The position numbers and the translations under genes are program-made. Below are positions 3,498 through 53,620 of a stretch of DNA of 64,000 nucleotides, piece by piece (position 1 is the first letter of the stretch; every line of letters begins with the position of its first letter). The notes beneath the pieces were generated by a model that made no database searches, had not been told where the DNA came from, and saw only the letters and a program-made list of their open reading frames with translations. The DNA comes from Acrocarpospora corrugata (GTDB taxonomy: Bacteria; Actinomycetota; Actinomycetes; Streptosporangiales; Streptosporangiaceae), in contig NZ_BLAD01000042.1 of NCBI RefSeq assembly GCF_009687845.1, forward strand, positions 41,087-105,086, in the 5' to 3' direction.

Positions 3498-3568
3498 CCT
3501 GCTTTCCGGAAGGCATGGCGAATCATCGCCGTCAGACAAGGCCAGTTAGCAACGATACCAGCTGTGAA

Positions 3569-3683
3569 ATGGCCGCGCCTCCGGCACGGCGGGCTTGGCC
3601 GCTGGGGAGCCTGTGTCTTCCCTCGTCACTCCGGCCGCTCCGCGACCTGCGTTCCTCAGTCCAGACACCGGCGCGGCCAAGCC
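3569..3683 (+). repeat. Dispersed 115-bp hairpin element, copy 1
   Basis: One of four near full-length copies of a structured repeat (others at 21243, 41809 and 49957). It has a 5' hairpin (arms 3572-3579 and 3583-3590), then a long nested hairpin with outer arms reading GGCTTGGCCGC and GCGGCCAAGCC and inner arms near GTGTCT and AGACAC. This copy has one mismatch in the first stem and one in the inner stem. Its right end is six bases past the stop codon of the minus-strand gene coaD. Confidence 0.85.
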
Positions 3684-20536: not shown

Positions 20537-21283
20537 ATGAGCGAGACCGACCTGCCGGCCCCGCCATGGGACCGCAACCGCAGACGCCCGGCCCCGGCGA
20601 AGGTGCCCCTCACCAGGGAACGGATCGTCGACGCCGCCTTCACCGTGCTCGACAGGGAAGGCTACGACCGCTTCAGCATGCGGCAGGTCGCACTCGAACT
20701 CGGGGTCGCCGTCTCGGCGCTCTACGTGCACGTCGCCAACAAGGACGAGCTGTTCGAGCTCATGTACAACCGCACGTTCGACGGCGCGGAGCTGCCCGAC
20801 CCAGACCCGGAGAACTGGCAGGAGCAGATCAAGGAGTTCGCCCGCCGGGGCCGCGCCCGCCTGCGCAGCCACCGCGACCTGGCCCGCATCTCGATGGGCC
20901 ACGTCCCGTTCAGCCCCGAGTTGCTCCCGCACGTGGAACGGCTGATGGCCATCTTCCGCTCCAGCGGCATGCCCGACCTGGTCGCCGCCATGGCCGGGGA
21001 CCTGCTCTCCACCTACATCGAGGGCTTCTGCCTGGAGGAGAGCATGTGGCTGGAGCGCTACCGCGACATGGACGAGGCGACCTGGGAGACCAAGCGCAAC
21101 GAGATCATGGGCTACTTCGCCGAACTGCCGCCCGACCGTTTCCCCAACATGGTGGCGATGGCGCCGTACATGGTCGACGAGTCCAACGACTACCGCTTCG
21201 AGCTCGGCGTGGACATCCTGGTCCGCGGCCTGGCGTCTTACATTGGCCGAGCCTCCGGCTCGGCGGGCTCGGCCGCTCCTTAG
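20537..21283 (+). CDS. TetR-family repressor of the adjacent exporter
   Basis: A 248-residue regulator. The HTH (about residues 24-70) has RERIVDAAFTVLDREG and the recognition helix GVAVSALYVHVANKDEL. The rest is a TetR_C-type ligand domain with a Trp/Met-rich pocket. AAAGGAG precedes the ATG. Divergence from the exporter and the operator palindromes point to local control of efflux. Oddly, about the last 14 residues (after ASY, rich in Gly, Ser, Ala) and the stop codon lie inside copy 2 of the dispersed 115-bp element, so the original C-terminus was probably replaced. Confidence 0.92.
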   Translation: MSETDLPAPPWDRNRRRPAPAKVPLTRERIVDAAFTVLDREGYDRFSMRQVALELGVAVSALYVHVANKDELFELMYNRTFDGAELPDPDPENWQEQIKEFARRGRARLRSHRDLARISMGHVPFSPELLPHVERLMAIFRSSGMPDLVAAMAGDLLSTYIEGFCLEESMWLERYRDMDEATWETKRNEIMGYFAELPPDRFPNMVAMAPYMVDESNDYRFELGVDILVRGLASYIGRASGSAGSAAP

Positions 21284-21357
21284 CCGGTGTCTTCCCTCGT
21301 CACTCCGGCCGCTCCGCGACCTGCGTTCCTCAGTCCAGACACAGGCGCGGCCAAGCC
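21243..21357 (+). repeat. Dispersed 115-bp hairpin element, copy 2
   Basis: Full-length copy. The first hairpin reads GCCGAGCC ... GGCTCGGC, differing from the other copies on both arms so that pairing is kept. The long hairpin has outer arms at 21267-21276 and 21347-21357 with one mismatch. The middle segment (about 21288-21340) is identical over more than 40 bases to copies 1 and 4. Its left end overlaps the TetR coding region and supplies its stop. Confidence 0.88.
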
Positions 21358-41727: not shown

Positions 41728-41808
41728 TGATTTGTCCTTCGAGAATTACGGGCGCGATCAGCGCGAGCTTGCCGGGACTTAGGACGGCCCCGAGTCTAGC
41801 TGTGTCTA

Positions 41809-41921
41809 CTTGCCGCGCCTTCGGCGCGGCGGCCCGGCCGCCTTCAGCCGGTGTCTTCCCTCGTCTCTCCGGTCGCTGCGCTCCCTGCGTTCCTCAGTCC
41901 AGACACCGGCGCGGCCGGGCA
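41809..41921 (+). repeat. Dispersed hairpin element, copy 3 (diverged)
   Basis: The most diverged full copy, about one base shorter. Both arms of the outer stem have changed together: CCCGG/CCGGG here, where other copies have CTTGG/CCAAG. The inner stem uses G-C where copy 4 uses T-A, and the first hairpin is a perfect GCCGCGCC/GGCGCGGC. It fills half of the 384-base gap 41728-42111 upstream of serA. The remainder (41922-42111) holds only likely promoters, with no gene I can support. Confidence 0.82.
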
Positions 41922-49956: not shown

Positions 49957-50071
49957 GGCTTGGCCGCGCCTGTGTCTGGACTGAGGAACGCAGGTCGCGG
50001 AGCGGCCGGAGTGACGAGGGAAGACACAGGCTAAGGAGCGGCCAAGCCCGCCGATCCGAAGGATCGGCCAA
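49957..50071 (-). repeat. Dispersed 115-bp hairpin element, copy 4
   Basis: A full copy in the minus orientation, starting just 2 bases after the ilvC stop codon. The first hairpin is GCCGATCC/GGATCGGC, a third variant with pairing kept. The inner stem GCCTGTGTCT/AGACACAGGC and outer stem are both perfect in this copy. Beyond it lies the ilvC terminator. Confidence 0.88.
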
Positions 50072-50073
50072 TG

Positions 50074-51096
<1,023 letters not shown>

Positions 51097-53586: not shown

Positions 53587-53620
53587 TCGGCCAAGCGCGC
53601 CGTGCCGAAGGCGCGGCCAA
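53587..53620 (-). repeat. Remnant of the dispersed element, copy 5
   Basis: 34 bases matching only the left end of the element, TTGGCCG with the first hairpin (GCCGCGCC/GGCACGGC) and the start of the next arm. It begins 2 bases after the stop codon of the GGDEF-EAL gene, exactly as copy 4 begins after ilvC. The rest of the unit is missing. Confidence 0.7.

Follow-up and report, generated by a model that had tools for sequence, protein, structure and literature searches.

The 115-bp unit at positions 21243-21357 of the analysed DNA, a 64,000-nucleotide stretch of the Acrocarpospora corrugata genome (hereafter the window), belongs to a group of widespread small structured repeats with mobile-like behaviour that are similar in type to REPINs and further orphan repeats. 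Its copies are dispersed, are present in some genomes and absent from others at orthologous sites, conserve a fold with a strand asymmetry, and carry genome-biased variants. The family is probably one of non-autonomous mobile structured elements that depend on a mover acting in trans, are selected for the fold of one strand, and exchange sequence between copies.

The original prediction of four full copies and a remnant on one plan was confirmed by an alignment of the four window copies from end to end, with a mean column identity of 84% over the elements and 20 bases of flank; the accompanying view of a dispersed, non-coding, non-autonomous element was likewise supported. Three copies are direct (+), and copy 4 and the remnant, a solo hairpin, are inverted. 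On the strand on which copies 1 to 3 read forward (the given strand), the order is junction motif, hairpin 1, outer arm, bulge, inner arm, loop, and the inner and outer 3' arms. The features of the window are as follows.

3569-3683, plus strand: copy 1 (3563..3683 with its 5' junction motif TGTGAAATG)
21243-21357, plus strand: copy 2
21246..21264, plus strand: hairpin 1 of copy 2, GCCGAGCC TCC GGCTCGGC (read from the sequence; helix 6, 98.2% of cells paired, n=48 sequences)
21266..21276, plus strand: 5' arm of the outer stem of copy 2, GGCTCGGCCGC (read from the sequence; helix 1 of the 48-sequence alignment)
21283..21291, plus strand: 5' arm of the inner stem of copy 2, GCCGGTGTC (read from the sequence; helix 2 of the 48-sequence alignment)
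21292..21337, plus strand: loop of copy 2, TTCCCTCGTCACTCC...CTGCGTTCCTCAGTCCA, conserved across genera (sequence comparison)
21338..21346, plus strand: 3' arm of the inner stem of copy 2, GACACAGGC (read from the sequence)
21347..21357, plus strand: 3' arm of the outer stem of copy 2, GCGGCCAAGCC, which is the 3' border
41809-41921, plus strand: copy 3 (41800..41921 with its 5' junction motif CTGTGTCTACTT), upstream of a serA-type gene
49957-50071, minus strand: copy 4 (49957..50073 up to the gene), directly after the ilvC-type stop codon at 50074-50076
50074-51072: ilvC-type gene carrying copy 4 at its 3' end
53587..53620, minus strand: remnant, hairpin 1 and the start of the outer arm, adjoining the stop codon of a GGDEF/EAL gene

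Copy 1 lies between a gene with a YceD domain and a gene with a cytidylyltransferase-like (coaD-type) domain. A TetR-type gene (20537-21283) overlaps copy 2 and has its stop codon (21281-21283) inside the element, so that about the last dozen codons of this gene come from the insertion. The bulge is mostly 5-7 bases long, and the loop, of about 46 bases, is almost invariant between genera. In some genera (L327, L330, L342, L227), the apical loop forms an extra hairpin with a GAGGAACGAG loop, and GAGNGANG-like motifs recur within the conserved loop. One copy (L142/L093) has its apical loop inverted between its arms. Readings of the loop as hammerhead-like or k-turn-like were weighed by visual inspection alone and abandoned. 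Table 1 of PMC10117815 lists a rep-PCR primer for Mycobacterium intracellulare that includes GAGCGAAGCGA, which also occurs in the loop of the element; the target of the primer is possibly an analogous repeat.

Outside the 115-bp unit as originally drawn, the element has a degenerate 5' junction motif, approximately CTGTGNNNATG (69 regex-selected copies), and a 3' tail like CGGGACATACGACTTAYGGCGCGGAGRTTGCC in 25 of 80 regex-selected copies. On the opposite strand the tail looks, by eye, like a promoter ending at the base of the stem. The tail-like stretch CATACGA at copy 3 is also found in the empty sites of three relatives, with CATGCGA in the congener G003, and host sequence may account for some of the tail signal. 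Since the CAGTGA that precedes the element at ilvC is part of the gene, the junction motif can overlap host sequence.

The original prediction depended on further copies in the rest of the genome, and these were found. A search of the A. corrugata genome with copy 2, in which 40 of 141 candidates were scored, gave at least 43 matches with E no greater than 1. At least 37 of them cover 87 or more query bases; 6 are short, and two or more of the short ones are not separate fragments (C164, and another that lies inside another copy on the opposite strand). The four congeners, scored for 40 candidates each, contained at least 39, 43, 19, and 47 matches. A pattern scan of named genomes returned at least 85 stretches; with one exception, the 80 listed come from Acrocarpospora, Streptosporangium, Herbidospora, Sinosporangium, Planotetraspora, and Nonomuraea. 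The exception, the sole non-actinobacterial match among those listed, in Rubritepida (L046), was an unrelated 21-mer without structure and was rejected.

As originally proposed, a covariance model was built and related genomes were searched with it. This model, R1, was derived from an alignment of 48 sequences (A3) and detected the element in 71 of 150 genomes and 34 of 68 genera of the family, with 23 candidates scored per genome. Across the class (8 candidates scored per genome), 19 of 394 genomes matched; 17 of these, including A. corrugata itself, belong to the same family and 2 to one genus of another family. A more permissive rerun on 24 genomes again matched all 22 low-copy carriers and neither of the 2 others. 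Rfam 15 gave no match for the window at the gathering threshold and none on the element for three loci at E up to 5. Narrow tests of phage and plasmid records with one copy as the query, and of viral contigs with one 21-letter pattern, also gave no match. No description of the element was found in a literature search, in which the sequence strings were limited to three short ones from the loop. In Streptosporangium pseudovulgare, the element is arrayed in tandem and repeats roughly every 115 bases. In Streptosporangium carneum (L090, L041, L043, L088), it is nested within its own loop; the nested copies have a short (C)TCA on either side, which could be a small duplication.

The claim that paired changes preserve the structure was upheld in larger alignments. 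A3 was made with MAFFT from 48 sequences hand-picked for diversity among 131 distinct copies. Both sides have changed in 19 of its 29 predicted pairs and 97.7% of cells are paired, the structure having been predicted from the same alignment on which the pairs were counted. None of 500 shuffles paired as well, and sliding the partners by one to three columns lowered pairing to 48% or less. In a second alignment, A4, which contains 57 R1 matches (55 distinct) from other loci, both sides have changed in 26 of 29 pairs and 96.4% of cells are paired; A4 was fitted to R1, its loci were found with R1, and some of its species are possibly the same as in A3. It comes from a search of 49 out of 55 further loci, omitting L214, L224, L225, and L233 (partial or without hairpin 1) and the own-genome loci L318 and L332. 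Chance is excluded as the source of the pattern because of the number of long matches in the genome and these counts of pair changes.

Within the window itself, the mirrored arm changes that were first described held in part. The first-stem arms of copy 1 were corrected to GCCGCGCC/GGCACGGC, with one C-A mismatch on the given strand that is G-U on the opposite strand, and the outer-stem arms of copy 2 to CTCGG/CCAAG, again with C-A on the given strand and G-U opposite. The inner-stem arms, GCCTGTGTC/GACACCGGC in copy 1 and GCCGGTGTC/GACACAGGC in copy 2, are half-changed, so that mirroring in the window is partial and does not hold throughout.

Mismatches of this kind also distinguish the strands in the larger alignments. 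Read on the opposite strand, G-U cells outnumber A-C cells by 32 to 8 in A3, one invariant U-G pair being left out, and by 91 to 5 in A4, where about 36 of the 91 come from that same, nearly invariant pair; the units are cells, not independent events. The G·U pairs favour the opposite strand and thus identify it as the strand that folds. In RNA folding of this strand, the nested hairpin was the structure of minimum energy for each of the four window copies (z of -2.83, -3.76, -4.92, and -1.67), compared with one of the four on the given strand (z of -0.84, -1.57, -4.68, and +0.61). With RNA parameters, the given strand of copy 1 folded no better than its shuffles, and its opposite strand reached only z=-1.67. 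DNA folding covered the given strand of two copies and yielded the nested hairpin in one. The folding form is likely to be RNA of the opposite strand, and it may instead be single-stranded DNA with G-T pairs.

Variants of the bulge are biased toward particular genomes, and copies within a genome are partly homogenised. With the species of loci assigned by hand, the bulges TGGGGA, TCCTTA, or CCCTTA were present in 25 of 30 A. corrugata copies. Among the A. macrocephala copies, 15 of 17 have CTTCA, CCTCA, or TTTCA, as do 18 of 24 from A. pleiomorpha. The rule is not strict: GGGGA types make up 3 of 4 copies in A. catenulata, TCTGGGA occurs in 2 of 24 in A. pleiomorpha, and A. phusangensis has 4 copies of mixed types. 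Bulges also differ at orthologous sites. Hairpin 1 was identical in 5 of 8 orthologous filled pairs and different in 3; in the pair L108/L120, both hairpin-1 arms differ and there are 3 mismatches elsewhere. In L030/L206, hairpin 1 is identical, both inner arms differ, and the flanks are at 95-96% identity. Within the A. corrugata genome, both main bulge types occur with all three of the most frequent hairpin-1 alleles. This points to block exchange between copies, most likely by gene conversion, and some of the block differences may have arisen by re-insertion at the same site. Mirrored arm differences in the window are accordingly in part block replacements. The fold that they were taken to signal is conserved, but some arm differences switch as blocks (the 3 of 8 pairs for hairpin 1). 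Exchange therefore weakens the mirrored-change argument drawn from four copies and leaves the fold unaffected, since stems differ between genera and pairing is kept.

A comparison of orthologous intergenic regions with and without the element, also part of the original proposal, revealed differences in occupancy. Copy 3 is absent from the orthologous site in all four congeners (G001-G004), where some host sequence was also replaced, so that it is not a clean insert. Copy 4 is absent from G001, G002, and G004; in G003, the end of a contig shows the start of it. The remnant hairpin is present in G003, is absent from G002 and G004, and has no clear counterpart in G001. The site orthologous to copy 1 is empty in G002 (L109/L170). 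Several alignments were misplaced by the aligner, and junctions were read by eye. In the comparison of L110 with L020, GCTTAG is followed by the element and then by CGGGTCGCG, and the junction motif belongs to the insert; in that of L049 with L113, the insert lies just past a T-run. No clear target duplication was seen by eye at L110/L020, L049/L113, or copy 1/L109. A few bases were replaced at L020/L110 and L092/L181, and about 48 at L015/L174. At the 3' end of ilvC, a copy is present in A. corrugata, in G003, in Herbidospora solisilvae (L073), and at L125, and none in G001, G002, and G004; this pattern may reflect recurrent insertion or an old insertion followed by losses, and thus loss as well as gain. 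Empty sites, as aligned, point to gain without a clear target duplication, and at most sites gain seems the better reading than loss.

These results are best accommodated by a non-autonomous, mobile element of about 115-140 bp, whose selected form would be a folded single strand opposite to the given one. From 5' to 3', this strand would present the long nested hairpin with a purine-rich loop and then the short hairpin. New copies would enter intergenic DNA at or near short matches to the 5' end of the element, with no clear target-site duplication, by means of a mobilising enzyme presumed to be supplied in trans. Copies in one genome would then exchange sequence, most probably by gene conversion, so that paired arm variants spread as blocks, and the arms would stay complementary because the fold is selected, either in a transcript or in a mobile intermediate. 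The imperfect insertion at copy 3 and the bulges that are not strictly genome-specific slightly weaken this explanation.

The placement of the copies bears on the alternative that they are host regulatory RNAs, terminators, or attenuators kept at gene ends for their function, which we consider unlikely. By a simple home-made gene caller based on codon usage, 34 of 36 A. corrugata copies examined are intergenic. In a hand tally of gene ends facing a copy, 17 of 32 3' ends and 2 of 31 5' ends were no more than 15 bp away from it; this, the strong covariation, and the occurrence of copies at the 3' end of ilvC in two Acrocarpospora genomes, H. solisilvae, and L125 would fit such a module. However, congeners differ in whether they have copies 3 and 4, gene orientations are mixed, no U-run was seen by eye after either hairpin, and tolerance of insertions predicts an identical gene-end pattern. 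A 3'-end module of the host, which the original prediction had offered as one option, is thus disfavoured as the main role. Among genes recurring beside copies, most of the recurrent matches were reading frames of the element itself; one recurring group comprised L103, L219, L112, and others.

Quite improbable, on our assessment, is a selfish bacterial RNA in which the folded transcript would be the mobile intermediate, would be launched in part from the promoter-like tail, and would be bound at its purine-rich loop by a protein of the host. Movement by RNA copying (retroposition), with the folded transcript as the mobile intermediate, is very doubtful. It would account for the strand-biased fold and for a 3' border (given strand) that lies at the stem base beside the promoter-like tail. 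On the other hand, no 5'-truncation series was seen, and the reverse transcriptase domain RVT_1 was found in only 9 of 23 carriers, being absent in 14, and in 2 of the 10 genomes that had no match.

The matching transposase or RAYT-type gene suggested at the outset was sought through Y1, RVT_1, and IS110, and none of them tracks the element: each was surveyed as a mover and set aside, its presence not following that of the element. The survey used 21 hand-picked copy-rich genomes with at least 9 R1 matches (G065, G100, and G144 also reach 9 and were left out) and a comparison set of 10 genomes without an R1 match; one of these, G033, is of the same genus as G108 and was assessed under stricter filters. 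All three domains were missing from 6 of 23 carriers (G003, G031, G036, G108, G110, and G148). Their present-day absence is no proof of past absence. A search of 2.18 Mb of DNA found neither a composite element split around a reading frame nor a full-length relative with the same ends, the half probes being sensitive to Acrocarpospora-like copies only.

A classic MITE of a DDE transposase, or an IS110 derivative, would likewise be small, non-coding, and dispersed. Such an origin is hard to credit, since the borders have no terminal inverted repeats and, by eye, no clear target duplication (the nested S. carneum copies are ambiguous), and the IS110 C-terminal domain (PF02371) was present in 15 of 23 carriers, absent in 8, and found in 7 of the 10 genomes that had no match.

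A REP/REPIN-type element whose mover is a Y1 (RAYT) transposase that works on single-stranded DNA, the other version originally put forward, is highly improbable and is largely refuted as a present-day mechanism: Y1_Tnp was found in 10 of the 21 copy-rich genomes (absent in 11, and in G003) and in 4 of 10 genomes without a match, R1 detected no element in 41 Y1 loci of the 58 Y1 matches listed, and orientation relative to replication was 26 to 17 (p=0.22; two genomes, a small sample, with circular chromosomes, rounded lengths, and a midpoint terminus assumed). The Y1 tnpA of A. corrugata (L143, 1480-2600) lies beside a divergent tnpB-like frame, an arrangement that by eye is that of IS605, with no element nearby. 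The element does resemble REPINs as outlined in PMC3116915 in its short hairpin after a short 5' motif, the lack of a clear target duplication, and its tandem or nested clusters.

Like REP/REPIN sequences with their RAYTs, the element has short hairpins, is extragenic, and is both dispersed and clustered; unlike them, it is longer, has a large loop conserved across genera, shows strand-biased covariation, and has many carriers without Y1. REP hairpins are adjoined by a 5' GTAG tetranucleotide, which the junction consensus CTGTGNNNATG of the 69 copies does not reproduce. Palindrome-associated elements derived from IS200/IS605 have hairpins near both ends and no clear target duplication. The element shares both traits, but many of its carriers lack a Y1 transposase. 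Bacterial candidate structured RNAs in Rfam similarly have a conserved fold with compensatory changes, whereas the element has no Rfam 15 match and, in its behaviour, is like a mobile repeat and unlike a gene-linked RNA. Cyanobacterial small dispersed repeats and other orphan repeats are tiny, structured, and dispersed, and their mover is unknown. The cyanobacterial repeats belong to another host group and are likened to the element by description, not by sequence. The present family is also short and non-coding, with polymorphic sites and none of the tested movers tracking it. SDR, NEMIS, and ERIC are named in PMC3116915.

The finding that paired hairpin changes can travel as blocks, as seen at orthologous sites, cautions against reading mirrored changes as independent compensation. 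Were the selfish-RNA reading true, the element would be a SINE-like bacterial parasite without a transposase of its own, a Y1 enzyme, or a dedicated reverse transcriptase. Many bacterial repeats are orphans with unknown movers. The probable non-autonomous mobile family described here is tractable in this respect, given its abundance, the empty sites in close relatives, a model that reaches half of the sampled genera, and carriers that lack all three tested movers.
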